In this document: in pieces, positions 3,001 to 24,191 of the stretch | Position numbering within the stretch: the first letter of the stretch is position 1 | Layout: the number at the start of each line of letters is the position of its first letter | Virus record (IMG/VR): IMGVR_UViG_3300012920_000257 | Span: 1 to 24,191 of that record | Reading direction: 5' to 3' (one strand) | From: a virus | Length of the DNA stretch: 24,191 nt | Made by a program: the position numbers and the translations under genes | The notes under the pieces: generated by a model | What the model was told of the DNA's origin: nothing | The model's input: the letters and a program-made list of their open reading frames with translations, nothing else | Database searches by the model: none

Positions 3001-6000
3001 ACTTTTTAAAAAGCCAAGTCTTAAAGAATAATAAAGTAACCATTGATACCTTTGCTGACCTTATCCCTGAAGTCCAAAGCATACTTATTAATGCGATCAA
3101 GAAAGAAGAAGGGGCAATAAAGGAAGGTGAAGCCCCTAAGTATCGAATTGAGTTAGAGTATGAAGGTCAAAAGTATGACCCTACTGATATTGATAGTGCG
3201 TTTTTGCGAAACGTAATGGATAAGTTTGAAGACGTAGGTAAGGCTTATCAAAGAGTGGAAATTCCATCTAAAGCAGGAGCAACTTTACAGGAAATTCTAG
3301 CTAAAAAGCTTAATAGACCTGAAGAGTGGATGGATGTCGTATGGGAAGCAATTAGCTCAGGCAGTAAGGAAGATTTATGGAGAGCAATACTTCAAGATAG
3401 ACTAAGCTTCATAGCTTTAGGTTTATATTTAGATTCTGCCCAAAGATGGGAAGGACCTACCGCACTTAATGATGATGGTAAAAGAGTTAGCATTGATCCA
3501 GATGAGGCTATAGGTACTAGAGCTAATGCTGACGAAGGTTATCAACCCGGGGCGCCAAGAGACACTCCTCTCACTTGGAATGAAGCATTAGTGCAAGCTA
3601 AATCAATTCTTAGTGAAGCAAATGTAAAAGATGAAAACCTTAATGATGTCGAGCCTGTTGATCCATACATGGAGCCTAACGTCGATCATTTAATAGATGA
3701 TCTAGGAAGAACTTCAAGAGAGAGTGATGATTATGATCCGACCGAGCAAGAACTCATGGATGGCTTCCAAATCGAAAGAGGTGGAGAGGAATCCAAAAAT
3801 GAAACTGCTGGTAAATTTGAAGATGATGGCACTGAAGGTGTTCAACGCGATAGACCTGACGTAGATTATAGGCATAGCGTTGCAAGTGGAAGCGTTAAGC
3901 CGCCTTATGCTGACTGGTTGCCTATTGATGAAGGAGGAAGATTAGAAAAGCCTATTGGAGAGGCAATGGATATTGCCCAGTATTTATATAAGAAAGCTAA
4001 GGGTGCTAACCTTAATGGTGAACACAATCACTTCAATTATACCCCTAATGATTTTGTTCATGCCTTCCTTGAATTAACAGGATGGACAACCAAAGAACTT
4101 GAGTTTGCGCAGGAATCAGTGAAAGTCCCAGTTGGCCCTGAGATGCCTGTTGGTGATTTGGTTCCAGCAACAATAAAAATAATACAAAAGAACCAAAATT
4201 TCGTAAGAGAATGGGCTAATAGAAATGGAGTTACAGAAGAGTATGCAAACCAACAACCTATGCGTGGTTGGGAAGTTGATGTAGAACCAGTCGGAGCAAA
4301 AATTATAGAAAACCCAAGTGCTAGCAATCTTTCAGAACAAGGAAAAAATGTTGTTTCACAAATCCGACAAGCTCTTGGTAGGGAGTTGCGCCCACAAAAG
4401 AAGGGCGCAAAGAAAGGTAAAGGGCTTACTAAAGAGCAAAGGCTTCAACAACAAATAGATAATAGCAAAAACAATGCGGCAATTGATAAGGCCTACAATC
4501 AAGCTGACGCGACGATAGTAATGATTAGCCGAAAACAGGCTAAGAATCTTAAACTACCAGATGGCATTTACGCCATGCATGACGGAATAGTTTATCGCGT
4601 AAATGAAGAGACTGGGAAAATAGGTCCAGCAAGAGGCCCAAAATCAATATCAACAAGCACCATTAAGCCAGCCCCTGAACTAGAGGATAAAGTACCAACA
4701 GGTCAATTAACTGATACATCTCTAAATAAATCATTAGATTATCCAGCTAAACGTGCGCTAAAGAAATCAACTTTCGACAATAAACCTTTTTATGTAATTA
4801 TCGGTGAATGGAACTATCAATCATCTTACATTGATGGCTTGCTAGCCCGTGCTAGGGTTGAGAACCCAATGCTTTTGGGTGACTTAGATAATTTAAAAGT
4901 TCCTTATCATGCCGCACAGTACGAGAGTGATGGCTTAGGTTCATTGATTAGAGAAGGTGGTGCAATTGATCCTGAAGGCACAGGTTCATTTAGGACACCA
5001 GTTGCGGCAGAGCCTGTTACTGGTGGCTACCGATGGAGATCAGGAAAGAAAGGCAAGAACCAAGCAGAATATGTTGCTAAAATTATTCAGCATAAAGGAG
5101 TTCCCAAGATCGTATTGATGAAGTTCAAGGGAGAGACCTATGAGTTTACTAGGATAATTGATTACGGTGACTATCGAAAAATTAGTAAATCAAAGGAAAA
5201 GATTAAAAATTCTGACTTGGAGAAAATGCAGGATGAGGGAAGTAGCAATATGGGTCTACAGCATATCAAGGAAGGGATAGATCGTCAGGCGGCAACTGGA
5301 AGAGTAACAAAGGTCAATAAGGACTTAGATGCCCTATTTGATGGTTTCTTTGCTCAAAGCGAAGATACGTCCTACATGGATATAGATGAGGCAAATCAAA
5401 TGGCTGACCTCAATAATATGAGGAGATACATTAAGGAAGTTGCCGCAAAAAAGAAAGGCCTTGCAATAACTTACGGAGATAAACGTAGCATTCGTTTATT
5501 TGATGAGAAAGATGCTTTCTTTCATCAGCACTCAGTTAATCGTCAGCGTGGCATGGAGGAAGAAGGTCTTCGCAAGAGAATAGAAGAAACTGTCAAAGAA
5601 CAAGTCACTAGAACTCTTGTTGAAACTCAGTCAAAAGTTCGTCAACAGGAGCTGGACGACCACAATAATGATCAACAACATGACGATCCCCTCATTACTA
5701 ATGTAAGGGGACAGCAAGAAGCATCTGCTCCAAGCACAGCGGAAGCTGAGCCATCACCTAACCCAACAGAGCTGACAGTTGAGCAACTTATAGCAAAGTA
5801 TGTTATTACAAGTAAGAACCAAGATGGAGTTGGAACTATTACTCAAAAGCAGGGTGACTTAGATACTGATTCATTGAGATGGAGTCAGAGCTATGGATAC
5901 AAACTGGAGCAGTTCAGATCAGAGAGCGATAAGATCTCATATATCTTAAGGATTAACCCAGATTCATTACTTTCGCCCCAAAATGCTGGTCAAGCAGGAA

Positions 6001-8558: not shown

Positions 8559-9976
8559 ATAAGATCTCTAAATGATTCCACGCTAGATAGCACTTGATCT
8601 GCCAAGTCACTTTTGTCCTTAAGAGCTTTAAGTATTTTTTCGTCTACTGTATTTTTGATACATAGATCAATGTAAGTGACGTTCTTGTTCTGCCCGATGC
8701 GATGGCATCTATCTTCTGATTGAAGACGATCCTCCAGTTTAAAGGAATTAGAGTAATAAATCACATACCCTGCATTATTGAGCGTAAGGCCTTTGCCGCC
8801 ACATTGTGGAGTACCTATCAAGTAGAGGCAATCAGGGTCGTTCTTGAAGCGTTCTAGAGCTTCCTGACGCTCTACTAGATCATTGGGGCCGTAATAAGTA
8901 ACAGACTTTTTGCCCAAGGCCGCATGGAGCAGTTCCACATCACGTTGGAAACTGCACCACACGATCACCTTGGAACTGGTCGTGTCGATCTCATTAGTGA
9001 TCTCCATGACCGCATCGAGTCTGTTGTTTGGGATGTCTTTCGTGTTGCCAAAGTCATCTTTGACGTGACCACACGCTATCTGATGTAGCTTAAGTAAGGT
9101 GGTGAGAGCATTTGTCGAAGTCAATAGCCCATCCTCCAACATGACTAAGCTTTCATGCTTTAACGTCATGTACATGAGTTTTTGCTCTTGAGTCAGCTCT
9201 ACGTTCCTAACCATGTAGTTCTTATCAGGTAGATCTAGACAATCTTCATTCAGTACTCGGTAATTAAAGGGCTTAATTCGTTCAGTAAGCTGGTCTAGGT
9301 TTTTGTAACCAGTAACCTTATCGAACGTCCTATTCCCCATAGTCATTTTCATTTGGTTAGCATAGGTATGTTTGAACAGAAAGAATGATGGACAGCCTGA
9401 AAGTCCTTTATCTAAGAACTCAACTTGTGAGTATAGATCCAATGGGGAGTGAGTAATTGGAGTACCAGTAAGTATTCGTCGATACTTGCAAACCATACCT
9501 ATCTTGATCGCGGCTTTACTGCGCTTACCCTTCGGATTCTTGATAGCTGTCGACTCATCAATTACCATCATGGTGTCGTGATCCTTGATGAATCTAAAAC
9601 ATAAATCATTACCCTTCTTGGTAGATAATGACTCTATGTTAATTAAAAGGATTTGGAGGCCCTCAGGTGCATCAATCAAATGCCTGAGAGCCTCCGCCTC
9701 CTTCTTCTTCATGGATGAACTGTAACTTGCTAACTCATAACCTCCCCAAGCATGAGTTTGCAATTCAGACTTCCAATTAAGATAGACCCCTTTTGGGGCG
9801 GATATGACTACACGGGAGATTTGTTTAGATTCGTGTAATGCGAATATATTATCTATGGTAACTTTGGACTTCCCAGTTCCCATTTCCATAAATAAAGCAT
9901 AGTATTCCTTGTCCCAGCTTTGATTTAGAGCTTGTAGCTGGTGGTCGTAAGGTTGAGTTTTAAAATTAAAGGTCAT
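8555..9976 (-). CDS. SNF2-like superfamily 2 helicase/translocase
   Basis: A 473-residue SF2 ATPase of the SNF2/RapA type. With the start at 9976, the Q-motif-like region (YDHQLQAL) is near residue 10, Walker A MEMGTGKS at 30-37, motif II as VIDEST around 138-143, motif III LTGTP at 169-173, and the C-terminal RecA lobe ends in the SNF2-typical QSEDRCHRIGQ. SNF2 proteins move along double-stranded DNA and remodel bound proteins; in phages they are usually placed with replication or recombination genes, as here. The frame is open for 28 more codons upstream, to 10060, but that would overlap the preceding helicase gene by 95 bases. ATG 9976 overlaps it by only 11 and the conserved domain begins just after it, so I chose 9976. 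No good ribosome binding site is visible, which suggests translational coupling to the upstream gene. It is the last gene of the leftward operon. Confidence 0.88.
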   Translation of the reverse strand: MTFNFKTQPYDHQLQALNQSWDKEYYALFMEMGTGKSKVTIDNIFALHESKQISRVVISAPKGVYLNWKSELQTHAWGGYELASYSSSMKKKEAEALRHLIDAPEGLQILLINIESLSTKKGNDLCFRFIKDHDTMMVIDESTAIKNPKGKRSKAAIKIGMVCKYRRILTGTPITHSPLDLYSQVEFLDKGLSGCPSFFLFKHTYANQMKMTMGNRTFDKVTGYKNLDQLTERIKPFNYRVLNEDCLDLPDKNYMVRNVELTQEQKLMYMTLKHESLVMLEDGLLTSTNALTTLLKLHQIACGHVKDDFGNTKDIPNNRLDAVMEITNEIDTTSSKVIVWCSFQRDVELLHAALGKKSVTYYGPNDLVERQEALERFKNDPDCLYLIGTPQCGGKGLTLNNAGYVIYYSNSFKLEDRLQSEDRCHRIGQNKNVTYIDLCIKNTVDEKILKALKDKSDLADQVLSSVESFRDLI

Positions 9977-11480
9977 AGATGTACTGTGTAGATGGCTCAC
10001 ATATGTAGAGTTTCTTTTTAGCTCTGGTGACTCCCACATACCAAACACGATGCTCGGCATCTTCGTTGTCGATCATAGCGTTGTAGGCGTTGAGTCCCAT
10101 ATCTGATAGTAAAACAACATTATCAGCTTCTCCCCCCTTAGCTCCGTGTATGGTTGATATAGTTATTCTTGGTTCCGATATGTCATCAACCTCTAAAGCT
10201 CTTTCCATATAGTCTCTGTCTGAGTCTGTTATTCGATCTAAAGCGTCAGCCCAATCCAGATCGGAACACAAAAGCCCATAATCATCTTTTAGCTGTTTAA
10301 TTGTAAATACACCATTATCTTCCATTGCGTTAACCTTGGACTTGATTCCATGCTTAACCCTTTCAACGGACGACATGAGGCTATACAACAGCTTGACTCT
10401 CCTACCTACTGCTAGTCCACCAGATCTTAGAGTCTGCCAAGTCCTGACAGCTAGAACCAGCTCTTTAAAGTCTTTGGCTTTATGTGCATACCTGTAGAAG
10501 ACTCCAGCTTCTATGCACATTTCCTCATAGTCTCTCAGAAGCCCATTGGTTCTCGCCATTAGCAACCATTGACCTTCTCGTATCTCATCAATCAATTCTA
10601 AGGGTGATCTGATGTATTCGACTTCTCCTTGTTCTTCTCCAACAGACTCCCAAGATTTTTCTCGTCTTTCAGAAATTCGCTCAATGATTCGATTAGAGAC
10701 TTCCTTGATTCTTGGTGGTACTCTCCAAGATCGTCCAAGTGTTTCGACTCTTCCTTGAAGTTTGATGAAGTGTTGGACATCGGCTCCTGCCCATTCGTAA
10801 ATGCTTTGGTCATCGTCTCCCGCTAAAAATACTTCGTTGGCTTTAAGTGCTAGTTTCTCTGCCATCCTCCATTGTATCGAGGATAAATCTTGTGCTTCAT
10901 CAATAAATAGTACATGAAGAGATGGTACGGTTCCTGAGTTAGCGTACTCCTGAATGACATCATCAAAGTCCATCTTGTTATTGAGAAGCTTGTAATATGA
11001 TAGCTTTTCATCGAACTCGACTAGCTCATCATAATCTACTTGGTCGCCGTACTTGGTCCAAGCGTCCTTCAAAGACATTTCACGTATCTTAGATTGACTG
11101 ATTACAGACAGCAACAGGTTCCCCATGTGCCTACCTTCGGGCATGCCATAGGCATCAAAGGAATCAAAGCTGATACTGGTTCCAGTTTCTTTAGCCAGAG
11201 CATAGTAATCACTTGGATTCATAATGTTATTCCTCCTTAGGTGAAGGAATTCGAATGCAAGTGAGTGAAGTGTGCGGAATAGAGGAAGGTCGTCTTCGTA
11301 TAAATCGAAACGCTGGCATGCTCTTTCCAATGCTTCATTAGCCGCTTTTTTAGTGAAGCTAATGAAGCACACACTTCTTGGACTATAGCTACGAAACACC
11401 TTATCCAACTGAGACATAAGTCTAGTTGTTTTACCAGTGCCCGGAGGGCCTAGTATTAGTGTTGTGCAGTCTGGGTTCAA
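9966..11480 (-). CDS. UvrD/Rep-like superfamily 1A DNA helicase
   Basis: A 504-residue SF1A helicase that should unwind DNA 3'-5' using ATP. Visible motifs: Walker A GPPGTGKT at residues 11-18, motif Ia SFTKKAANE at 41-49, Ib TLHSL at 70-74, motif II LFIDEAQDLS at 191-200, motif III LAGDDDQSIYEWAGA around 219-233, motif V TISTIHGAKGGEAD near 440 and motif VI VWYVGVTRAKKKL near the C-terminus. It is shorter than host UvrD (about 720 residues), mainly through reduced 1B/2B insertions. The start codon is TTG and forms a TTGA overlap with the stop of the upstream HTH gene. The next in-frame ATG falls after Walker A, so TTG is the only sensible start. It sits between a primase/HTH pair and a SNF2-like translocase, consistent with a job in phage DNA replication or recombination. 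Confidence 0.92.
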   Translation of the reverse strand: MNPDCTTLILGPPGTGKTTRLMSQLDKVFRSYSPRSVCFISFTKKAANEALERACQRFDLYEDDLPLFRTLHSLAFEFLHLRRNNIMNPSDYYALAKETGTSISFDSFDAYGMPEGRHMGNLLLSVISQSKIREMSLKDAWTKYGDQVDYDELVEFDEKLSYYKLLNNKMDFDDVIQEYANSGTVPSLHVLFIDEAQDLSSIQWRMAEKLALKANEVFLAGDDDQSIYEWAGADVQHFIKLQGRVETLGRSWRVPPRIKEVSNRIIERISERREKSWESVGEEQGEVEYIRSPLELIDEIREGQWLLMARTNGLLRDYEEMCIEAGVFYRYAHKAKDFKELVLAVRTWQTLRSGGLAVGRRVKLLYSLMSSVERVKHGIKSKVNAMEDNGVFTIKQLKDDYGLLCSDLDWADALDRITDSDRDYMERALEVDDISEPRITISTIHGAKGGEADNVVLLSDMGLNAYNAMIDNEDAEHRVWYVGVTRAKKKLYICEPSTQYIYDL

Positions 11481-11713
11481 GAACGCTTCCTAGTCCTATA
11501 TAGCTTTGAGTTGATCAAGTACTGATATACAGTTCCTTTACTCACTGATATATCTGTGTGCTTAACAAGCCACTCAGCTATAGCTTTTAAGGTAAATCCT
11601 TTTTCTCTATGTAGGATTTTAATTGCCTGCTTATATGGCTCTAATCGGCTTACGTTTCTTGGTGATTGGCTAGGCTCAGCCTTAGCCATTTCTATTAGTT
11701 CTTCTATACTCAT
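11477..11713 (-). CDS. Small helix-turn-helix protein
   Basis: A basic 78-residue protein. The segment from about residue 38 to 66 (GFTLKAIAEWLVKH, then VSKGTVYQYL) reads as a helix-turn-helix with a recognition helix starting near the SKGTVYQYL segment. The C-terminus is strongly basic (YRTRKRS). It could be a transcriptional regulator or a small DNA-binding accessory of the replication enzymes. Its gene is locked between them: its ATG overlaps the primase stop (TAATG) and its TGA overlaps the TTG start of the helicase. I do not recognise a named family beyond HTH. The tight coupling on both sides makes it likely to be a real gene. Confidence 0.72.
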   Translation of the reverse strand: MSIEELIEMAKAEPSQSPRNVSRLEPYKQAIKILHREKGFTLKAIAEWLVKHTDISVSKGTVYQYLINSKLYRTRKRS

Positions 11714-13200
11714 TATTCTTTAGGTTGTTGTCTTTGAGGGACTGACCATACGTTAGTGCCTGTTCCCTTTATGTTGAAGAAAGTGTGATCAACTGCTTCG
11801 ATCTCTTTGATGTAAGCCAAAACCTTGTTCTGCTTGACTTCAGTGAATTTGACTCTATCAAGGTATAAGAGGAAATCTTTCATCCTGAAGTAGTGGCGAG
11901 AGTCATTAAGCCATGGTTTGCCTGATAATATCTCTTCTCGCTTTTTTGCTTGTACTCTACCTGTTAGAAAATCACTCAAATGATCGAGCATTCGCCCCTT
12001 TGGAGACGCTTCTTTTGGGACTTCTATTATTTCTAGGTTCTCTAATAATCCTGATATTATTTCTCGCCATTGGTCGCCTTTCACCACTGGAGGCATCACG
12101 CTCAGCTCCTCCATACAGCGTTTTTGAAACTGTCTTGGAGTTTGTAACTCCTCAGTAGATAACTCTATTATTCCTCCATCTATGACATCTATTCTCCATA
12201 CTGGAGGATCAGTCATCACTTTAGTAAGCCTACCAAGCTTAGGGATCTCTTCATCGGGTCGAACACCATATTTGCAGACTAAGCACTTAGACTTATTACA
12301 TACAGATACAATAGGGTTATCCTTGCATTTGTAGTTGTAGTCCTTGACAGATAGTGACTTAACTACCGCACCTACTTCTCTGTGGTCTAGCGGAGGATCT
12401 ATTAAGTCTCTATTGTAGTTCTCTATCGTCTCTTCCCAATCATCAGGGAAGGCCTTCTTAGCGTATACACCTAAATTAAAAAGTGTATTATTGCGGGTAT
12501 TAGGAGGGAACCCCCTAATAAGCAGAGTATTAAGACAAGGAGGGCCTCCAGCAAGTGGCTCTTTCTTCTCAGTTCTAGTCTTTTCTTCTGTTGTATAATG
12601 TTGTAACGCCTTTGCGCTCGTTCTGCGGGACTTAACGTATCCCACGATCTCTTGAAAGGGTATCGCATTGCCATCTTCATCAATTCCATATCTATCTGTA
12701 GATTCTGCAAAGAAATAGGGCATATTCAGCCAATTGCCCACACTGTTTGGGTCAGGTCGCTTATCTTGCTTTGGAAATATCTCCACACCATGAAAGCCTA
12801 GTAGGTTGGCCATAGTCTCCATGGCTTCTCTAGCCAGCTTAGCAGGGACAGGTTCTTCCAAGAACATGAACAAGTGTGCTCCACCTGACTTACTGCGAAA
12901 TGGTATTAGCGGTAGATTCTGACTATGTATCTTATCGTTAAGATCACTCAACGATAATGTATAGTCATCTATGTCTATCGCGCCAAAACATAAATGATCA
13001 TTAGAAAGGAGAGGAACAATACCGAGGCCAGTCCTGCCATGAAAGTGAGCATCCCAATGCGGCTCACCAACTTGGCCTCTGACGGTAATAGCTTTGCCCT
13101 TTTGCTTACCTTCGGTTTGTCCGTCCTCAATTTGGAATACCCCATACGCTTCAGTATATCCCCTGAACAGCTCTGCAAATTCTTTTTTGTACTCATCCAT
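11713..13200 (-). CDS. Archaeo-eukaryotic primase (AEP) superfamily primase
   Basis: A 495-residue protein with an N-terminal AEP-type primase domain like those of TOTE-type and phage primases. The catalytic acidic pair is in GAIDIDDY (D76, D78), the SxH-like motif is SKSGGAHLF with H109, and the third acidic residue is probably E120 in GVEIFPKQ, followed by GNWLNMPYF around 145-153. Residues 212-275 resemble a PriCT-like helical region (LNTLLIRGFPPNTRNNTLF). Four cysteines then form C282-x8-C291-x4-C296-x2-C299, a likely metal- or cluster-binding site seen in related phage primases. The C-terminal 190 residues have no motif I can name. It should make primers for phage replication; some AEPs also extend DNA (PrimPol), which cannot be decided here. 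The ATG at 13200 lies three bases after the T-tract of a strong terminator, so expression probably depends on read-through. Confidence 0.83.
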   Translation of the reverse strand: MDEYKKEFAELFRGYTEAYGVFQIEDGQTEGKQKGKAITVRGQVGEPHWDAHFHGRTGLGIVPLLSNDHLCFGAIDIDDYTLSLSDLNDKIHSQNLPLIPFRSKSGGAHLFMFLEEPVPAKLAREAMETMANLLGFHGVEIFPKQDKRPDPNSVGNWLNMPYFFAESTDRYGIDEDGNAIPFQEIVGYVKSRRTSAKALQHYTTEEKTRTEKKEPLAGGPPCLNTLLIRGFPPNTRNNTLFNLGVYAKKAFPDDWEETIENYNRDLIDPPLDHREVGAVVKSLSVKDYNYKCKDNPIVSVCNKSKCLVCKYGVRPDEEIPKLGRLTKVMTDPPVWRIDVIDGGIIELSTEELQTPRQFQKRCMEELSVMPPVVKGDQWREIISGLLENLEIIEVPKEASPKGRMLDHLSDFLTGRVQAKKREEILSGKPWLNDSRHYFRMKDFLLYLDRVKFTEVKQNKVLAYIKEIEAVDHTFFNIKGTGTNVWSVPQRQQPKE

Positions 13201-13202
13201 TT

Positions 13203-13249
13203 AAAAAATGGGAGCAGGAGGCGCCATGTCAGAAGCACCTCCTGCTCCC
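13203..13249 (-). terminator. Intrinsic terminator between the ssDNA-binding-like gene and the primase
   Basis: On the minus strand GGGAGCAGGAGG and CCTCCTGCTCCC form a perfect 12-bp stem with a 16-nt loop, followed by A and six Ts. The T-tract ends three bases before the primase ATG. A second small hairpin (CTAAGAG/CTCTTAG, 13266-13288) overlaps the upstream gene's stop codon. Confidence 0.85.
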
Positions 13250-13284
13250 TCACAATCACGGAATCCTAAGAGAACACATAACTC

Positions 13285-14031
13285 TTAGAAAGGGTTTGAT
13301 TCTAACTCCTTAGCAGTTGATTGCTCAATAGCCGCTGTTGTTTGCTTGTTGGCGGCAACTGCCTGACCAAAAGCTACACCATCGTCTACTGGTCCGTCTG
13401 TCTCAACCTTCCAGCCAAACCAACTACCATACTGATTAGACTCAGTAACGCTAGTTAGGTTGTAGTAATGACTGAAGATAGGAGGCGTAAACGGCTGTCC
13501 GTCTTCACCTTGCATTGTGATGCTGGTGATTTTAGATAGCCATTGACGAGACTTCTTCAACTGAGTGGATTGCATACTGATTATCGCACGCTCCCAACTT
13601 CCACTTGGAGTCTGATACATAACGAAATGATAAGCAGTCGTTTCCACATTGTTTCCGTTTGGAAGGACATACTTATTTTTCTCATTCCGTTCACACTCAT
13701 TCAGGATGCTACCGTCTGTATGAACTTGCACCATGCCGCCACCGTCTTCTCGTGGACGCCACTCTACATAGCTCTTTTGATACCCAACAGGGATAACTTT
13801 CGCAAGATCGCCATACTTGGCTATGATCTCGCGGGTCACGCTATTGAAGATATCACCAGCACTAGCACCTTCAATCCCCTTGGTAGCGTAGTCTTGATTA
13901 GACTTATCCACCTCAGGAGAATTGTTTTGGATAATTTGCAAGAATGGTACCTGCAAATCTTCGTTGCTTATATTCTCTGTGCCCACGCCAGCGTGAGAAG
14001 AGAAGTCGATTATGTTAGTGTCTTCTGACAT
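13285..14031 (-). CDS. Probable phage single-stranded DNA-binding protein
   Basis: A 248-residue soluble protein. The first part (VPFLQIIQNNSPEVD, then GDIFNSVT) and the middle (VIPVGYQKSYVEWRPREDGGG) match a protein type I know from many tailed phages, where it lies beside replication genes and is often annotated as a ssDNA-binding or replication-associated protein. The C-terminus ends in ELESNPF, an acidic tail with a terminal NPF, reminiscent of the acidic partner-binding tips of SSB proteins. There is no catalytic motif. The assignment to ssDNA binding is inference from family memory, tail and neighbourhood. There is no obvious Shine-Dalgarno sequence. The gene follows a 171-residue phage protein after four bases and is followed by a strong terminator, so it closes the first part of the replication operon. 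Confidence 0.6.
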   Translation of the reverse strand: MSEDTNIIDFSSHAGVGTENISNEDLQVPFLQIIQNNSPEVDKSNQDYATKGIEGASAGDIFNSVTREIIAKYGDLAKVIPVGYQKSYVEWRPREDGGGMVQVHTDGSILNECERNEKNKYVLPNGNNVETTAYHFVMYQTPSGSWERAIISMQSTQLKKSRQWLSKITSITMQGEDGQPFTPPIFSHYYNLTSVTESNQYGSWFGWKVETDGPVDDGVAFGQAVAANKQTTAAIEQSTAKELESNPF

Positions 14032-14035
14032 TTGA

Positions 14036-14551
14036 TTATTTGATTTTAGTTACGTTTTTGACAAAGATACCAAATACTTCTTCAGGCATATCCTTCCCCT
14101 CCTGATAGCGCTCTTTAACTAGAGCTTTTAGAGTTTGAGGGTGAACATTATGTTTGTTCCTGAATGATGCATCAGTATCTTCCAAATGCTTTACAAGCTC
14201 ATCAGCTTTATCACTTTCTCCCTTACTAAATAAGGTTGTGATTTCTCTTTTGATTAACGCTCCGTATCCATTACTAGCAAGCCACTCAAAAGCTTCAGAA
14301 CGCTTATCTTCTGGAATTTTAGCAAAGTATGCTTTTTCACACGTAAGCTTCTTTCCATCATTTAATTCTAAAGATTGAATACCTAGATCAAACATAAGGT
14401 CTGGTATGACCTCTTCGCTGATGCGGTCTCTTTCTTTTTGGAAACAGGTTAGGACTTCCTTTGCGGCTTCAATTTCGGAATCTAATTCTCGAATTTTAAG
14501 AACCCATTCGGACAGTTTACCTAACCCTTCAGGTAGGTTTTCTTCACTCAT
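14036..14551 (-). CDS. Conserved phage protein of unknown function, coiled-coil N-terminus
   Basis: A 171-residue acidic protein. Residues 15-50 form a likely coiled coil (ELDSEIEAAKEVLTCFQKER). A compact domain follows (SLELNDGKKLTCEKAY, then EAFEWLASNGYGALIKREI), and the tail reads HPQTLKALVKERYQEGKDMP. I recognise this arrangement as a common hypothetical protein of siphoviruses and podoviruses, placed just upstream of the ssDNA-binding-like protein, but I know no proven function. The coiled coil recalls Gam-like host-nuclease inhibitors in a general way only. The start overlaps the end of the nuclease gene by eight bases, so the two are probably translated together. Confidence 0.7.
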   Translation of the reverse strand: MSEENLPEGLGKLSEWVLKIRELDSEIEAAKEVLTCFQKERDRISEEVIPDLMFDLGIQSLELNDGKKLTCEKAYFAKIPEDKRSEAFEWLASNGYGALIKREITTLFSKGESDKADELVKHLEDTDASFRNKHNVHPQTLKALVKERYQEGKDMPEEVFGIFVKNVTKIK

Positions 14552-14966
14552 CGTTTAGTATGTTTTGGTTTGCGGTTTTTTTTGTCAAAGATAAAATCAA
14601 AGTTTCTGCAAAATTAGAAAACTCACATTCATAATTGGGATCAGTATTGACCTTGAGCCTTCCGTGAGTGCTTGTTGCTTCTACTCCAAAGTCAGGCGTA
14701 TCCCAGATTTTGATCTTTTTTCCGAACTGAAATACAATAGCTACATTAGATCCAAGAATCATCCGTTTCTTTATCCATGCGTGCTGAGCACTCCGTATTA
14801 TCGGTTTGGTTGCTGATTTGAGTTCTAGCCAAATTTCCCCCACTTTCGGGATGAATAGGTTCACGTCTGGTATCCCCAGACCTGTCGTGCTCTCTATCCT
14901 CTGCCAATGCCATAGAGGGGGGCAGTTGTTGCGAAGCGACTGATAGAATCTTGTCTCTGGTGCCAT
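14544..14966 (-). CDS. PD-(D/E)XK nuclease, VRR-NUC-like
   Basis: A 140-residue protein with a compact PD-(D/E)XK nuclease core: GLGIPDVNLFIP places the first acid at D34, and EIWLELKSA gives the E48-x-K50 pair. A conserved glutamine/basic helix follows (RSAQHAWIKKRM), and then a beta strand (VAIVFQFG). The order and size match the small stand-alone VRR-NUC/Holliday-junction-resolvase-like nucleases that phages encode among replication genes. Likely roles are resolving branched replication intermediates or trimming DNA before packaging; substrate specificity cannot be read from sequence. A TAG codon lies two codons upstream in frame, so 14966 is the first available start. About the first 220 bases overlap a different-frame ORF that begins at 15063. 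Confidence 0.78.
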   Translation of the reverse strand: MAPETRFYQSLRNNCPPLWHWQRIESTTGLGIPDVNLFIPKVGEIWLELKSATKPIIRSAQHAWIKKRMILGSNVAIVFQFGKKIKIWDTPDFGVEATSTHGRLKVNTDPNYECEFSNFAETLILSLTKKTANQNILNDE

Positions 14967-15063
14967 CTTTTTCTAGTTCCTTCATTGCTTGCCAGTATAC
15001 CTTTGGGTGATTGTGGTATACATGATTAAGTAACAGTTCCATTTCTTGATTTATTTCCCGCAT
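14746..15063 (-). CDS. Possible small gene overlapping the nuclease gene
   Basis: An ATG at 15063 overlaps the end of the small membrane-protein gene and opens a 105-codon frame. The first 33 residues (MELLLNHVYHNHPKVYWQAM, then KELEKDG) look like a normal helical protein and fill the 84-bp gap otherwise left between the membrane protein and the nuclease. The remaining 72 residues are read out of frame with the nuclease gene and look like a shadow (many R, D, T, H). It may be a real short gene whose tail overlaps, or the N-terminal half may be a remnant. I see no canonical slippery site that would join it to the nuclease frame. Confidence 0.35.
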   Translation of the reverse strand: MREINQEMELLLNHVYHNHPKVYWQAMKELEKDGTRDKILSVASQQLPPSMALAEDREHDRSGDTRREPIHPESGGNLARTQISNQTDNTECSARMDKETDDSWI

Positions 15064-15272
15064 AATTTTTTCATTAATAAAAGCATGACTGAAAATATTA
15101 CTCCAGCCATTACTGCCGATGTTATGCCGCCTAGTGTTCCACCACATAGAATAAATAAGCCTACTGTAAAGCTTATGTCTAGTGGTATCTCGTACTCAAT
15201 AGTTTTGCGTAAACCGAAAGCTTTGAGTACAATTATTAGAAAACCGACAGCGGAAAGTACCGCTAATATCAT
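15051..15272 (-). CDS. Small two-span membrane protein
   Basis: A 73-residue protein with two predicted membrane segments: residues 1-20 (MILAVLSAVGFLIIVLKAFG) and about 34-68 (FTVGLFILCGGTLGGITSAV followed by a second hydrophobic run LLLMKK). Each end is basic (LRK, KKLCGK). Its ATG overlaps the stop codon of the JAMM peptidase gene as TAATG, so it belongs to the same translation-coupled unit. Function is unknown. Because it is coupled to the ubiquitin-like cassette it might anchor that system to the membrane or simply be an unrelated early membrane protein. Size and topology would also allow a holin-like role, but the position in the early operon argues against lysis. Confidence 0.65.
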   Translation of the reverse strand: MILAVLSAVGFLIIVLKAFGLRKTIEYEIPLDISFTVGLFILCGGTLGGITSAVMAGVIFSVMLLLMKKLCGK

Positions 15273-16249
15273 TACGGCTTCTCCTGAACATAAAAGATGT
15301 CTTGGAACTTCTGGTTGAACTCAGTGAAACTCATGTTGCGCTCTACACAAGCTTGAGTTACGTCTGACCTCCAAACCCCATGAAGACCTAGCTCGTCTTC
15401 TATGTCCTCTAATACATCGCACCATTCTTGTGCTGTAATGCCAGCTTGCCATAGAATTTCTTCTATCTCCGCTTCGTCTTTAGCTTCTTGTTTATCCTGC
15501 TTCGTCGGAAACATTGACGGGGAAGCTTGGTAAGCACCGTATCCTCCGTAATAACCTGCTCCAAGATGGGTGTTATAGGTCTTTGGCTTTTCTTTGACGA
15601 CATCTTTCCATTCCTCAGGAAATTTATGTTCCTTCTGCTTCGCCACATTTGTACAAAGTAGATAGTCGTGTACTGCACGATACCTAACCTGCGTAGGTAT
15701 TTTATCGAACCAATCAGGCATCTCAACCCAACTAAGCATATCTGCTGGGAATAACTCACCAGCCCACGAAAACCTACCATGGTAATCGAGGATAGCTTTA
15801 TCCAGATGGCCAATAGTATAGTGAAAACCATCCTGCTCCTTTTCGTTAGCTTCGTCAGTCCCTGACTGAAACGCGTTGGTTGTGCAGTGGTGGTGCGCCG
15901 TGCCGAAGTAGACCCACGGGTCTTTGAACTTCGCCCTGATTTCTTCGTCTTGCTTGTCATTGGTGGTCATGCCAGAAGGCGACTGAGGATATGGTTGAGC
16001 CGCCCAACTGCGTGTTTGTGTATTATAATATAACCTGACTTGAGATTCCGACTTGTATTTCTCTTGTGTCCAGAGAAAGAAAGAAAGAACTTGAAACCAA
16101 GTCTTGTGGTCGATCTTACCGCCCTTGAACTTACACAGTGGCTTGGAGTCCTGCAACTCGATTCGGTTCCAGCCAGAGATAAACTCGTTATCTGATTTGA
16201 TGTACAGCTTGTTGTCATGTACTGCGAGGTTGTTAATGTCTAGCATCAT
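15272..16249 (-). CDS. JAMM/MPN+ metallopeptidase of a ubiquitin-like system (PRTRC protein A-like)
   Basis: A 325-residue protein. The JAMM zinc motif is exact: H119-x-H121, seven residues, S129, two residues, D132 (in HHHCTTNAFQSGTD). It is followed by ANEKEQDGFHYTIGHL, a continuation I know from the JAB domain of PRTRC system protein A. The upstream glutamate expected to activate water is probably E68 in SESQVRLYY. JAMM peptidases remove ubiquitin-like proteins from targets or process their precursors. The gene is in an overlapping operon with E1- and E2-like genes (ATGA overlap with the gene upstream), which supports that role. The roughly 150 residues after the JAB domain, rich in W, Y and acidic residues (EEILWQAGITAQEWCDVLED), are not recognised and could bind substrate or the Ubl. 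The assignment of domain and metal ligands is strong; the substrate is unknown. Confidence 0.82.
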   Translation of the reverse strand: MMLDINNLAVHDNKLYIKSDNEFISGWNRIELQDSKPLCKFKGGKIDHKTWFQVLSFFLWTQEKYKSESQVRLYYNTQTRSWAAQPYPQSPSGMTTNDKQDEEIRAKFKDPWVYFGTAHHHCTTNAFQSGTDEANEKEQDGFHYTIGHLDKAILDYHGRFSWAGELFPADMLSWVEMPDWFDKIPTQVRYRAVHDYLLCTNVAKQKEHKFPEEWKDVVKEKPKTYNTHLGAGYYGGYGAYQASPSMFPTKQDKQEAKDEAEIEEILWQAGITAQEWCDVLEDIEDELGLHGVWRSDVTQACVERNMSFTEFNQKFQDIFYVQEKP

Positions 16250-17025
16250 TCTATGATTCTGTTTAATATGTCTCTGTATTCGGTGTAGTCACCATCTAAA
16301 CTGGTGTCGCTTGCATCGTGATCATCGTAATTGTAATTTTGATAATCACCATCGCTATCGTAGATCCTCTCCCTGATTGTTTCCTCAAGGAGTTCAAGAG
16401 CTTCCTCTTCGCCGTCCTCTTCGTATTTGGTGCGAATGTCATCCAATTCAGCCCCTGAAAGAGATACCATATTGTAATGAACATCACACCAATACGTGGA
16501 GTTACCTGACTCGCTCATGGTAATATCTACGTCGAAATCAGTCCAGTCGGTGTTCCTGCGCATAGGTGGAGGAGCGTTCCTTCTACTGTACGAAGACTTT
16601 TGATAAGCCATTTGAAAGAACTTATCAGGATCCTCGATGATCTGTTTGTATAGATCACCAATGTCTTCGAACTCTATGTTGCGCCAGTTGTACTGGCTAT
16701 ACAACAGCTGTTTGGTGATCTCATTCTTTGGCTCCATAGTCAACCAGCGCATGATACCCATGGTAAGAGCAAAGGGATTGAAGAATATCTTCATCTCCTG
16801 AATGCCTTCGGATTCCCATGTGTCTTTGTGACAGTATTGAAATTCCGTGCTTAAACTCCATTTGTCTTCAATCTTGCGAAAGAAGTACCACATGGGATTG
16901 TTAAAGTTAACTGTCTCTTTGCCGTAGTTATCTACGGCTAGCTCTATTTTGCCTACCCAAACGTATTCTTTATTAGATAGTCCAGTTTTCGACTCGATAG
17001 TCTGTAAAACTTCTTCTGATGTCAT
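16246..17025 (-). CDS. Unknown protein embedded in the ubiquitin-like cassette
   Basis: A 259-residue protein I do not recognise. The N-terminal half is rich in aromatic residues (NPMWYFFRK, KFFQMAYQKSSYSRR). The centre is basic and proline-rich (RRNAPPPMRRNTDW), and the last 90 residues are extremely acidic (EEDGEEEALELLEETIRERI, then many D, Y and S). There is no signal peptide or membrane segment. The ATG at 17025 has a good ribosome binding site (GAGAGGAGTT) although it overlaps the E1-like gene by 53 bases, and its TGA overlaps the start of the JAMM gene as ATGA. Being wedged between E1 and JAMM, it is a candidate partner, adaptor or substrate of the conjugation system. A DNA-mimic or inhibitor role would also fit the acidic tail. 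Both are inference. Confidence 0.75.
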   Translation of the reverse strand: MTSEEVLQTIESKTGLSNKEYVWVGKIELAVDNYGKETVNFNNPMWYFFRKIEDKWSLSTEFQYCHKDTWESEGIQEMKIFFNPFALTMGIMRWLTMEPKNEITKQLLYSQYNWRNIEFEDIGDLYKQIIEDPDKFFQMAYQKSSYSRRNAPPPMRRNTDWTDFDVDITMSESGNSTYWCDVHYNMVSLSGAELDDIRTKYEEDGEEEALELLEETIRERIYDSDGDYQNYNYDDHDASDTSLDGDYTEYRDILNRIIE

Positions 17026-17644
17026 AAGGTAACTCCTCTCTAGCTTGTGGATGTGTGATTTCTGAATATTTAATTACGTGAACCCAGAACAAATGCATCA
17101 TCATGCAACCAGACATAGCATTAGCTATGGCCAATTGTGGTGTAGATTCAGCACTTTCTCCCTGACAGGACTGTGGGGAGCGTTCTGATTTCACAAGTAT
17201 TTCTGGATATCTGATGCGTGGATCTGCACGTGTGTTCATCCACTCAGCCCTGTAGCAGTACGATTGGCTATCGAAGTACTCATTGACACCAAAGATGCCA
17301 ACGGTGCCTTCTAGCTCGTCTAGATAATCCAAGACAAGCTTGCGGCTATCATGATTATCAACTGCCACAAAGACTACATCTGGGCTGTATTTATTAAACA
17401 GTTGCTTAGCATTGCGCTCCGTTAGGTACTCAGGCTCCACATTGATCTGGGGATAAAGCTGGCGTAATGCCATTGCCTTATTCTTCCCAATGTCTTGAGG
17501 CCTGAACAACTGCCTATCCAGATTCTTTTCCTCTAGCTCATCACCGTCTACAACAGTGATCTTGCCAGATGAATCGCACATCTTGAGCAGTTGTGGAAGC
17601 ATATGACTGGTGACACCACCAGCCCCGATAATCATTATCATCAT
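16973..17644 (-). CDS. ThiF/MoeB-type E1-like Ubl-activating enzyme
   Basis: A 223-residue Rossmann-fold adenylating enzyme. Visible family features: nucleotide-binding loop GAGGVTSHM (residues 7-15), acidic ribose-binding end VVDGDE with D33, NLDRQLF with N41 and R44 for the active site, GKNKA with K56, and FVAVDNHDSR with D96 that normally coordinates Mg-ATP. A probable catalytic cysteine is C160 in SPQSCQGES, after the usual crossover region. It lacks the CxxC zinc pairs of MoeB/ThiF. It is expected to adenylate the C-terminus of a ubiquitin-like protein, most obviously the one encoded at 18648-18881, and to pass it to the E2-like protein. The start overlaps the upstream 80-codon gene as ATGA. 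Size and lack of zinc sites resemble the ThiF protein of PRTRC cassettes. Confidence 0.88.
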   Translation of the reverse strand: MMIMIIGAGGVTSHMLPQLLKMCDSSGKITVVDGDELEEKNLDRQLFRPQDIGKNKAMALRQLYPQINVEPEYLTERNAKQLFNKYSPDVVFVAVDNHDSRKLVLDYLDELEGTVGIFGVNEYFDSQSYCYRAEWMNTRADPRIRYPEILVKSERSPQSCQGESAESTPQLAIANAMSGCMMMHLFWVHVIKYSEITHPQAREELPYDIRRSFTDYRVENWTI

Positions 17645-17883
17645 ATTCCCCTCGCTGTTCCTATTAATTGATTAATAAACTCTTCGGGATCCTTAGCCTC
17701 CCTCATGATCTTGTAAGAGTCGTCAGATAGTTTCTCACATTGATCAATAAACTTTAAGAGGTCTTCACCTCCGTTAAGTTTGGCGTAGATATATGCTTCC
17801 TTAACTCTTTCAGAGTTAAAGTAATCGGTGCTAAGATTACACTCAGCTGTGCCGTATGTCTGTATGCTTTCTTCAATGCTCAT
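17641..17883 (-). CDS. Unknown small protein between E2-like and E1-like genes
   Basis: An 80-residue acidic, probably all-helical protein (ERVKEAYIYAKLNGGEDLLK, then EEFINQLIGTARGI). I recognise no family. It is clearly a gene: it has a strong ribosome binding site (AAGGAGGT) before the ATG at 17883, that ATG overlaps the stop of the E2-like gene, and its own stop overlaps the E1 start (ATGA). The position between E2 and E1 makes it a candidate cofactor of the conjugation machinery. The sequence ends in GI and has no di-glycine, so a second ubiquitin-like modifier is unlikely, and it has no beta-grasp pattern. Confidence 0.75.
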   Translation of the reverse strand: MSIEESIQTYGTAECNLSTDYFNSERVKEAYIYAKLNGGEDLLKFIDQCEKLSDDSYKIMREAKDPEEFINQLIGTARGI

Positions 17884-18569
17884 ACAACCTCCTTCATGAA
17901 TGCTAGTTTAGATTGGGAAATCATTTCTAGATGACGCTGATAGTCCTCCATAGGAGGATGGATGAGCTTATCATCATTAATGAGGATATACCTGCATTGG
18001 CCGTCATCTAGATCTGAGTTAAACTCACTATTCTTGAAGTCAGTCAATGCGTTGGAATGCTTTTCCGCCATGGTATCACCTGTGACAATGAAATGACTAC
18101 CCATGCATATTTGACCATTTGAATATACATTTGGCAGGGGTGGACGATATATGTCCCCGTCCATACTTGCTATCAAGTAGCAACAAGACAACTCGTTGTG
18201 TCTGTTGTAATTAGTACCGAACCACATCTTCATGTACTCGGGTGGAGTCCATGTGATGTCTTTTTTGATGGCACCATCTTCTTGTCTGAAGACTGCTTTG
18301 AGTGCTGGCCATTGGTCGGCTTCCCCGAATACTGGGCCTTCGTAGCCAGCCCAGAATGTATTTAAACTAAACTTATCAACTTCTGTCACAAGCCAAGACC
18401 CATGGTCATTGGTTGCGAAAGTTGTATCCGCAAATAAGTCTTTGGTGACCATGGTTGCAGAGTTCCTCATTGACGCTATAGCCTGATTGGACAAGCAGAC
18501 TCTATTGCGTGTTGTGCGCTCCTCATAGATCGCACCATTCTCAAATATGTAGCGTTGTGATGTAGACAT
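17880..18569 (-). CDS. E2-like Ubl-conjugating protein (PRTRC protein B-like)
   Basis: A 229-residue protein. Residues 145-157 read LPNVYSNGQICMG, which resembles both the conserved core of PRTRC system protein B and, in layout, the active-site region of eukaryotic E2 enzymes (HPN, then a few residues, then the catalytic cysteine). C155 is therefore the predicted acceptor cysteine and N147 the HPN-type asparagine. A beta-rich stretch (ELSCCYLIASMDG) precedes it, as in the UBC fold. The N-terminal 100 residues are not recognised. It is expected to take the activated Ubl from the E1-like protein encoded two genes downstream. The gene starts about 20 bases after the T-tract of a terminator that follows the Ubl gene. 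Its own stop overlaps the next ATG. The E2-like fold is inference from motif and operon context; target specificity is unknown. Confidence 0.75.
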   Translation of the reverse strand: MSTSQRYIFENGAIYEERTTRNRVCLSNQAIASMRNSATMVTKDLFADTTFATNDHGSWLVTEVDKFSLNTFWAGYEGPVFGEADQWPALKAVFRQEDGAIKKDITWTPPEYMKMWFGTNYNRHNELSCCYLIASMDGDIYRPPLPNVYSNGQICMGSHFIVTGDTMAEKHSNALTDFKNSEFNSDLDDGQCRYILINDDKLIHPPMEDYQRHLEMISQSKLAFMKEVV

Positions 18570-18587
18570 TATACCTATGCTAAAGTT

Positions 18588-18625
18588 AAAAAAAAAAGGG
18601 GAGCCACGAATGAACGTGACCCCCC
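18588..18625 (-). terminator. Intrinsic terminator after the ubiquitin-like gene
   Basis: The minus-strand RNA forms an 11-bp stem GGGGGGUCACG/CGUGGCUCCCC with a six-base loop, followed by ten Us. Two of the pairs are G-U wobbles that pair only in the leftward transcript, which fixes its orientation. It separates the Ubl gene from the E2/E1/JAMM operon, so the modifier may be made in excess of its enzymes. Confidence 0.85.
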
Positions 18626-18647
18626 TGAAAGAGAAATAGAAGGATAC

Positions 18648-18881
18648 CTATGCCTTCGAATTTGAGCGAGTCTCTAACGAAATAACTACGTTGGGTCCGA
18701 GATCTGCAAGCGTGGTGCTTGGAGATTGAACAACACCATCGACGATGGCGTCAACGCTCTCACCATGTTTTAAGATGGCTTTGTAGTTAGTATTGCTGAC
18801 GAGATCACCAATAGTGGTGGTCTCATCAGCTTCGTCTGAAACTTGCCTAGACAAGCCATGTTTAAGAACAAAACTGATCAT
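18648..18881 (-). CDS. Ubiquitin-like beta-grasp protein
   Basis: A 77-residue protein with the order expected for a ThiS/MoaD/ubiquitin-like beta-grasp fold: strand (ISFVLKHG), second strand (SRQVS), helix starting at TTIGDLVSN, strand VDAIVDGVVQ and a final strand VVISLETR preceded by DLGPN, where Ubls carry a turn. It is just upstream of E2-, E1- and JAMM-like genes on the same strand, so it is the likely modifier. It ends in RSNSKA: there is no C-terminal GG, and the last glycine is 16 residues from the end. Activation would therefore have to use the terminal alanine or involve a non-canonical route. AAAGGT and TTAGGT lie upstream of the ATG. A transcriptional terminator follows. Fold assignment by pattern only; a structure prediction would settle it. 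Confidence 0.75.
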   Translation of the reverse strand: MISFVLKHGLSRQVSDEADETTTIGDLVSNTNYKAILKHGESVDAIVDGVVQSPSTTLADLGPNVVISLETRSNSKA

Positions 18882-23186: not shown

Positions 23187-23523
23187 AGCGCAGAAGGGTC
23201 TTCGTACCGCCCTATCAAAAAGCGTGTCCACGGCAAAGGAGACGATGCTAGGGAATAAGAAGGTTAAGCCGACCGAGATGCGGGAGGCCTTAGCTATATA
23301 TTTTGAAAAGGCAGAGTACGACCCAATAAAAGAATTGATCGACACGGCTAAAGATTCTGAAGTTCCAGTAAAGGAGAGGATAGGAATCCACAAAGAATTC
23401 TTAAAGTATATGGCACCAAGCCTAAAGAGTATAGATATACAACAGCACGTAGACGCTAATATCCAAGTAGTTGTGCGTAAATTCGGAGATGACATAATAG
23501 AGATAGATGAAGAATCAGATTGA
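23164..23523 (+). CDS. Candidate small terminase subunit
   Basis: A 119-residue protein with a basic N-terminus (MPAKSRTKAQKGLRTALSKS), a central helical region (EMREALAIYFEKAEYDPIKE) and the segment KDSEVPVKERIGIHKEFLKYMAPSL, which is similar to the oligomerisation region of small terminase subunits. It lies directly before terL and overlaps it by 17 bases, the normal place for terS. Small terminases recognise the packaging site and hand DNA to the motor; pac/cos specificity cannot be read here. The alternative would be an unrelated DNA-binding protein. Confidence 0.65.
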   Translation: MPAKSRTKAQKGLRTALSKSVSTAKETMLGNKKVKPTEMREALAIYFEKAEYDPIKELIDTAKDSEVPVKERIGIHKEFLKYMAPSLKSIDIQQHVDANIQVVVRKFGDDIIEIDEESD

Positions 23524-24191
23524 GTTGCCATATGATTTTATACCCAGAGACTACCAAATGCCATTATGGAAATATTTGGAGGGCGGAGGGAGAAAGGCGT
23601 GTGTAGTATGGCACCGCCGTGCAGGAAAGGATTTGTTTGCTATTAACCGCATAGCTTGTGCGAGCCAAGAGCGTATAGGTACTTACTGGCATGTACTACC
23701 TACATACAATCAAGGCCGCAAAATTGTGTGGGACGGCTCAACAAAAGACGGTCGGAAGTTTCTTGATCACTTCCCCCGAGACTTAATCGCTAGCAAAAAC
23801 AACACAGATATGCGCATTACGTTTAAGAACGGAAGTGTATATCAAGTTGTAGGAGCGGACGACCCCGACCGATTGGTTGGGGCTAATCCAATAGGGGTCG
23901 TCTTCTCCGAATACAGTTTGATGGATCCCAAAGTGTACACATTAATCCAACCGATCTTGAGTGAGAACGAAGGATGGTGTTTATTTATATTCACCCCACG
24001 TGGAAAAAATCATGGATGGAAACTCATGGAAGTGGCAAAGGAAAGCCCTAATTGGTATGGTGAAGTGTTGGGTGTTGATACTACTGGCGCTGTACCACTT
24101 GCAAGAATTGACGAAGACAGGGAGGCAGGCATGCCCGAAGAGATGGTCAAGCAGGAGTATTACTGTAGTTTCGAAGCTCCGATCGTTGGAG
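23507..24191 (+). CDS. terL: Large terminase subunit (packaging ATPase), 3'-partial
   Basis: The first 228 residues of the DNA-packaging motor, cut by the right edge. Walker A is WHRRAGKD at residues 35-42, Walker B with catalytic glutamate is GVVFSEYS around 130-137 (E135), and the coupling motif is FTPRG at 162-166. An adenine-binding-like region (PRDYQMPLWKYLEGG) precedes Walker A. The nuclease domain is outside the window. The start is certain: a TAG codon in frame lies directly before the ATG at 23507, which overlaps the small-terminase candidate. The ATPase packs genomic DNA into proheads. Its presence beside the giant protein's end and the early module shows the two ends of the rightward arm. 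Confidence 0.93.
   Translation, partial: MKNQIELPYDFIPRDYQMPLWKYLEGGGRKACVVWHRRAGKDLFAINRIACASQERIGTYWHVLPTYNQGRKIVWDGSTKDGRKFLDHFPRDLIASKNNTDMRITFKNGSVYQVVGADDPDRLVGANPIGVVFSEYSLMDPKVYTLIQPILSENEGWCLFIFTPRGKNHGWKLMEVAKESPNWYGEVLGVDTTGAVPLARIDEDREAGMPEEMVKQEYYCSFEAPIVG

Follow-up and report, generated by a model that had tools for sequence, protein, structure and literature searches.

The window analysed here is a 24,191-base viral fragment from IMG/VR (record IMGVR_UViG_3300012920_000257), and our subject, approached by computation, is a six-gene cassette that lies entirely on its minus strand. In the order of transcription the cassette encodes a ubiquitin-like modifier (Ubl), an E2-like enzyme, an 80-aa protein, an E1-like enzyme, a 259-aa protein that we call X and a JAMM metalloprotease-like protein (Table 1). 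Four of these genes (Ubl, E2, E1 and JAMM) had been picked out by a first-pass annotation of the same DNA, and a check of the open reading frames (ORFs) found them intact where it had placed them, in that order and on one strand. The genes for the 80-aa protein and X, the alanine at the Ubl terminus and the hairpin after the Ubl gene had been missed. The ATGA-type overlaps reported between E2, E1 and JAMM exist as 4-nucleotide overlaps, but they do not join these three genes directly: they run between the E2 and 80-aa genes, between the 80-aa and E1 genes, and between the X and JAMM genes. The E1 and X genes overlap by 53 nucleotides.

Searches of viral contigs with the window E2, JAMM and E1 proteins singly found no relatives, and neither did tblastn of E2, JAMM and X in annotated phages. 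Because the window proteins are too divergent for single-protein searches, a degenerate DNA pattern of the JAMM core was needed; in viral contigs it gave at least 120 stretches, and all locus counts in this text are among the matches listed. Profile searches of these loci recovered E1 and E2 in most of the stretches that were long enough, often with a Ubl alongside. Two architectures are present: E1 follows JAMM in clade A (59 loci) and precedes it in clade B (54 loci, the window included), where the order is Ubl-E2-small protein-E1-(X)-JAMM; clade counts include added bacterial genome hits. On an E1 tree of 104 rows, made by a quick method and with some long branches, gene order needs two changes and the window sits in clade B on its own branch. 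The closest E1 by identity among the matches listed reaches 41% (L047), and identity between the window proteins and their aligned relatives is only about 15-36%. The survey of related viral genomes that had been proposed as a check showed strong co-conservation, with the same gene set in the same order in dozens of divergent contigs, which argues that the cassette is not a product of chance. The suggestion of a wholly undescribed system is not supported, because many viruses carry the cassette and a 2006 paper had already predicted its general type (PMC1779556).

Table 1. Features of the cassette and of the adjoining region, in positions of the 24,191-base window.
Feature	Position	Strand	Basis
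Ubl, 77-aa ubiquitin-like modifier	18648..18881	(-)	AlphaFold2 beta-grasp model, Foldseek to ubiquitin/SUMO; homologues directly 5' of E2 in 31 further clade B loci
Terminator-like hairpin, 12 pairs, then T10 run, in the Ubl-E2 gap	18597..18626	(-)	Hairpin scan
E2-like enzyme, 229 aa, predicted active-site Cys155, Asn147 eight residues upstream	17880..18569	(-)	Pfam PF14460
80-aa protein, E2-E1 interval	17641..17883	(-)	ORF with 4-nucleotide overlap at each side
E1-like ThiF-type adenylating enzyme, 223 aa, invariant Cys160	16973..17644	(-)	Pfam ThiF
X protein, 259 aa, acidic Tyr-rich C-terminus	16246..17025	(-)	hmmsearch and hhalign to clade B family
JAMM/MPN+ metalloprotease-like protein, 325 aa, E68 / H119-H-H121 / S129 / D132	15272..16249	(-)	Invariant catalytic set
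73-aa hydrophobic protein, probably membrane	15051..15272	(-)	Homologues 5' of Ubl in ten other loci
Adjacent replication module	9966..14966	(-)	Nuclease-like gene, Pam3 gp33-like (DUF7307), Pam3 gp34-like, primase, UvrD-type helicase
SNF2-type helicase, after the replication module	8555-10060		

The modifier and its terminus

A beta-grasp fold had been set beforehand as a check on the Ubl, and it was confirmed. The AlphaFold2 model, built from a 26-sequence alignment, is a confident beta-grasp (mean predicted local distance difference test score, pLDDT, 90.9; predicted template modelling score, pTM, 0.75), with lower confidence only at the C-terminal tail. Compared with the PDB by Foldseek, the model matches archaeal ubiquitin, SUMO, ubiquitin and ISG15 at E values of about 1e-4 and template modelling (TM) scores of about 0.71-0.78. 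A family search of the Ubl gave no meaningful family match.

To our knowledge, the beta-grasp modifiers that are conjugated end in glycine. The window Ubl ends in ...SLETRSNSKA, without Gly. This Lys-Ala end is found in 29 of 32 clade B Ubls, the other three closing with Lys-Gly (L115), Lys-Gln (L116) and Lys-Asn (L036), and the penultimate Lys is invariant in the clade B alignment. Every complete Ubl of clade A (32/32) has a Lys-Gly end, which in some is followed by a short tail. Where Ubls are in tandem, the inner repeats end in Lys-Ala in L012, L021 and L096, and in Lys-Gly in L006 (Bacillus phage KLEB27-3) and L137. Because internal repeat ends carry the same residue, the terminal residue marks the functional end of the Ubl, and selection seems to have shaped the terminus of every repeat. 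There is an experimental precedent for conjugation through a C-terminal Ala: among the cGAS-like proteins of the cyclic oligonucleotide-based antiphage signalling system (CBASS), whose last residue is Gly or Ala, one of those with Ala is conjugated (PMC10097602).

Enzymes, partner proteins and the conserved hairpin

The JAMM motif is present as claimed: the string HHHCTTNAFQSGTD fits HxHx7SxxD, with the upstream Glu (E68) invariant in relatives, and E68, H119, H121, S129 and D132 recur in 111/111 proteins (53/53 in clade B, 58/58 in clade A). An N-terminal extension is present, and W51 is conserved in 42/45. Between the two His of HxH stands Ser in 54/58 clade A proteins and His in 50/53 clade B proteins. 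As L115 and L137 pair HHH with a Lys-Gly Ubl end, HHH is a clade trait and not strictly tied to Ala; clade-tracking differences of the HSH/HHH kind may reflect ancestry instead of tuning.

The E1 matches Pfam ThiF above the cut-off (4.3e-20) and has a single ThiF domain. Its GxGG motif and residues D33, D35, N41, R44, K56, D96, R101 and C160 are invariant or nearly so in both clades, with Cys160 in 104/104. Residue 120 is Gly in clade A, mostly Ala in clade B and Val in the window. A tuning of this residue to the Ubl terminus was considered and set aside: Gly is retained at some Lys-Ala loci, and both Ubl ends occur within one subclade, so the pattern may be ancestry only.

The E2 matches Pfam Prok-E2_D (PF14460), again above the cut-off (5.1e-8). 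N147 and C155 are found in 61/61 viral and genome-contig E2s, and N184-x-D186, a clade B feature, is nearly as constant. The spacing of 8 from Asn to Cys is the same as in eukaryotic ubiquitin-conjugating (UBC) enzymes. The window E2 has LPN where the classical motif has HPN, and Ile, Thr and Ala stand at +6, +8 and +13 of C155; a conserved His downstream of the Cys was not found in clade B, position 185 being variable and Ser in the window. The E2 model (pLDDT 76) consists of an N-terminal beta-rich part, a helix, a four-strand meander, the Asn147...Cys155 segment and a helix, and from the first helix through the meander to the final helix its elements follow the UBC order. By Pfam, motif and topology, a UBC fold is likely. 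Profile searches of the PDB with the JAMM and E2 alignments gave no significant match. Across relatives, the catalytic residues of E2, E1 and JAMM are not degraded.

Two further proteins belong to the cassette. Members of the X family occupy the E1-JAMM interval in 19 clade B loci, and window X is a divergent member, linked by hmmsearch at 1.3e-7 (seven-sequence set) and by hhalign at an E value of 1e-4 against the 21-member family; relatives of X have no Pfam match above the cut-off, and the family is without annotation. Nearly every clade B locus has a small ORF between E2 and E1. The 80-aa protein holds this place in the window, and no sequence link was found between it and its positional counterparts in clade B. 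The small clade B protein at this position (L025, L061, L136 and others) has the conserved core DCGRKRGAILRYIK.Y.

Significant folds (z < -2 against dinucleotide shuffles) occur within 100 nucleotides past the Ubl stop in 24/32 clade B and 26-27/31 clade A loci. The same test after E2, E1 and JAMM gave 5/32, 6/32 and 9/29 in clade B and 1/24, 4/30 and 5/32 in clade A; there are near-copies among the loci, so these counts are not independent. The hairpin past the Ubl gene is kept in position across the family, and its sequence differs between loci. Such conservation suggests that the tag may be made in excess of its enzymes. Further strong terminator-like hairpins lie on the minus strand at 13249-13210, 19545-19510 and 22280-22249, one of which separates the Pam3 gp34-like gene and the primase, and terminator-like sites number 22 versus 7 in shuffles.

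A putative conjugation pathway, its relatives and its alternatives

We consider it probable that the cassette is a working, reversible Ubl-conjugation pathway expressed with the phage replication genes. In favour of this stand the intact and ordered parts, the beta-grasp Ubl, catalytic residues that are invariant across a divergent family despite low identity, the conserved Ubl terminus with its CBASS precedent, a hairpin specific to the Ubl end and the replication module shared with about 15 related phage loci. In such a pathway, the E1 would adenylate the carboxyl group of the C-terminal alanine of the Ubl and then hold the Ubl on Cys160; from there the Ubl would move to Cys155 of the E2, which would attach it to target proteins at an amino group. 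The JAMM would take the Ubl off its targets and, in relatives with tandem or tailed Ubls, would also trim precursors. The hairpin past the Ubl gene might cut read-through to the enzyme genes or stabilise the upstream message, either of which would leave the tag in excess. X and the small protein could be accessory factors, adaptor or E3-like. Our leading guess for the targets, taken from gene context, is proteins of DNA replication or processing. It is reasonable to speculate further, though here we lean somewhat towards doubt, that a large viral lineage of complete Ubl pathways gave up the terminal Gly and conjugates through a C-terminal Lys-Ala, that the surroundings of the E1 and JAMM active sites shifted to match (HSH to HHH in the JAMM), that phages modify replication or virion proteins in this way, and that the RNA hairpin sets the ratio of tag to enzymes.

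Several observations weigh against conjugation as the function of the cassette. The JAMM reaches Pfam Prok-JAB only below the curated cut-off (0.0058). The UBC fold that had been set as a check on the E2 was not confirmed by Foldseek, with no significant UBC match for the model (best UBC-type hit at an E value of 0.55), so that the fold is supported by Pfam, motif and topology. The Lys-Gln and Lys-Asn ends of L116 and L036 make Ala less than absolute in clade B. Since the loci were gathered by their JAMM core, the frequency of the other genes without JAMM is not readable from the survey. Finally, podovirus MW202510, a complete genome, has the replication module and no cassette was found in it; the cassette is thus optional.

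Type 6d, one of the operon types predicted by Iyer in 2006, is the closest described system. As described there, it has a Ubl with a highly conserved C-terminal Gly, an E2 with a conserved Cys, without the classical His and with an absolutely conserved His downstream of the Cys, a JAB with an N-terminal alpha+beta domain and conserved Arg and Trp, and a largely alpha-helical partner with conserved polar residues (PMC1779556). Measured against that description, the window shares the stand-alone small Ubl, the E2 with a conserved Cys, the stand-alone E1 and Pfam Prok-E2_D, as well as an N-terminal extension on the JAB and, by position, an extra poorly conserved protein. Two defining residues are missing here, as the window Ubl ends in Lys-Ala and no conserved His follows the E2 Cys; further differences are the X family, the phage setting beside replication genes and the conserved hairpin after the Ubl (for 6d not mentioned in the part available). 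A relation to PRTRC/type 6d operons is supported, PRTRC having been named by the first-pass annotation. All the enzymes show a weak likeness to PRTRC (TIGR03735-03738: ThiF 2.6e-14, B 1.4e-3, A 0.048), at NCBIfam scores far under the curated cut-offs (18 vs 131, 53 vs 145 and 13 vs 102 bits). No ParB-related gene, a PRTRC feature, was found among the genes scanned in the window, which is a fragment, and the plasmid PRTRC protein C examined (L142) ends in Asn-Gly, unlike the Lys-Ala of the window.

The comparison with Bil, also made earlier, does not hold. BilABCD likewise has Ubl, E2, E1 and JAMM in one operon; however, BilA has two Ubl domains and a reactive Gly, BilB a CEHH motif (Cys, +6 Glu, +8 His, +13 His), and BilD inactive and active adenylation domains and a Cys domain (PMC11354881). 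The window Ubl is a single domain ending in Ala, its E2 lacks CEHH and its E1 is short, with one ThiF domain, so that E1 architecture, E2 motif and Ubl number rule out membership. Type II CBASS Cap2/Cap3 shares conjugation via a C-terminal Gly or Ala and a JAMM isopeptidase (PMC10097602), but Cap2 is an E2-E1 fusion and its modifier a cGAS-like enzyme, whereas the window has a beta-grasp modifier and keeps every part separate. By our own reading of its record, which annotates PRTRC_A and ThiF, Bacillus phage vB_BauM_KLEB27-3, which is in culture, has a complete clade A cassette comprising Ubl, E2, JAMM and E1 (gp194-gp199). Unlike the window, it has the clade A order and four tandem Ubl repeats, each ending in Lys-Gly (gp199, L006 2676-3425), near an unannotated E2-like gp196. 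In the open-licence literature no report was found of phages carrying complete Ubl cassettes, and other sources may already mention them. What appears to be new is the alanine end with the clade that bears it, together with the X family and the conserved hairpin; the general operon type was predicted in 2006 (PMC1779556).

What the pathway would serve could be read differently. It is unlikely, in our estimate, that it inactivates host immune or restriction proteins early in infection, or that the JAMM strips host Ubl tags: placement with early/replication genes, as the layout suggests, and optional presence within a lineage, which fits a host-dependent trait, are consistent with such counter-defence, but no target or matching host system was found, and removing host tags alone needs no full making pathway. 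We give rather little credence to a phage-borne defence module that tags proteins of competing phages and excludes rivals, as Bil does for bacteria. The four-part combination is common to both (PMC11354881), and clade B cassettes also occur in bacterial metagenome-assembled genomes (MAGs), mostly of Verrucomicrobiota, one of them beside a Wadjet-like pair and another beside AbiEi/AbiEii-like genes by ORF reading; yet the Bil-specific features fail, PADLOC returned weak E1-domain matches and called no defence system, and in phages the cassette adjoins core replication genes at many loci.

Readings that deny conjugation altogether fare worse. That the genes are remnants, or a conserved complex repurposed for a structural role, strikes us as very improbable: the Ubl does lack the canonical Gly and the E2 the downstream His that the 2006 paper gives for type 6d, but the catalytic residues are invariant in over 100 divergent proteins and the Lys-Ala end is itself conserved, internal repeat ends included. 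Least credible is a sulfur-transfer or cofactor pathway of the ThiS/ThiF kind. The E1 is indeed a single-domain ThiF-type enzyme whose top NCBIfam score is ThiF; against this, it occurs together with a JAMM and an E2 whose Cys is invariant, the neighbouring genes include none for thiamine or molybdopterin, and the Ubl lacks the terminal Gly of ThiS/MoaD. A sulfur carrier was set aside as the principal explanation on the presence of E2 and JAMM.

If the conjugation pathway is active, a virus would be importing its own complete ubiquitin-like pathway into bacteria. The family would test the use of Ala at every step of an E1-E2-JAMM cascade, the Gly-ending sister group serving as a natural control, and provides a compact single-operon system for finding the targets of type 6d/PRTRC-like pathways, a question that dates from their prediction in 2006. 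The hairpin past the Ubl gene would be a simple, testable expression rule, and the two partner proteins, both unannotated, are candidates for adaptors or ligases.

Genomic surroundings

The replication module downstream of the cassette includes a nuclease-like gene, VRR-NUC-like in MW202510. About 15 clade B loci have this module beside the cassette. The earlier placement of the cassette in a phage next to replication genes is supported. Its description as the head of the replication operon is loose, since more ORFs on its strand are encoded upstream, up to about 22445. The window primase gave no match in other clade B viral contigs (42-71 kb), and the cassette therefore seems to have been carried by more than one phage lineage.

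Clade B relatives in bacterial genome contigs come mainly from Verrucomicrobiota MAGs, and by our own reading of the ORFs some of these cassettes are apparently in bacterial, not phage, surroundings. In a Limisphaerales MAG (L133 1869-15855) the cassette is near a beta-clamp-like gene, an adenine methylase and the Wadjet-like SMC/JetD pair, and in a Verrucomicrobia MAG (L129 9963-12977) it adjoins RadC-like and AbiEi/AbiEii-like genes, both by ORF reading. L136, from a Sneathiella MAG, carries the phage replication module and is probably viral. The human gut "phage" scaffold MT835919 (L005 7-7140) holds JAMM, E1, a beta-clamp-like gene, a methylase and an E2-like gene, and may be a plasmid or other mobile element instead of a phage. 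Many clade A cassettes (L011, L027, L045, L050, L110 and others) have a second, more divergent E1-like gene past the Ubl, and some lie near genes resembling multi-subunit RNA polymerase and SbcC/D, as in jumbo phages.

Elsewhere in the window, a 2828-aa ORF (72-8558, plus strand) has no Pfam match, and part of it resembles a structural protein of podovirus MW202510 (1.1e-30); its product is probably an internal virion protein. An ORF truncated at the right edge (23507-24190, plus strand) has no Pfam match at 1e-3 and reads like a terminase large subunit, with relatives in six clade B loci on the strand opposite to the cassette.

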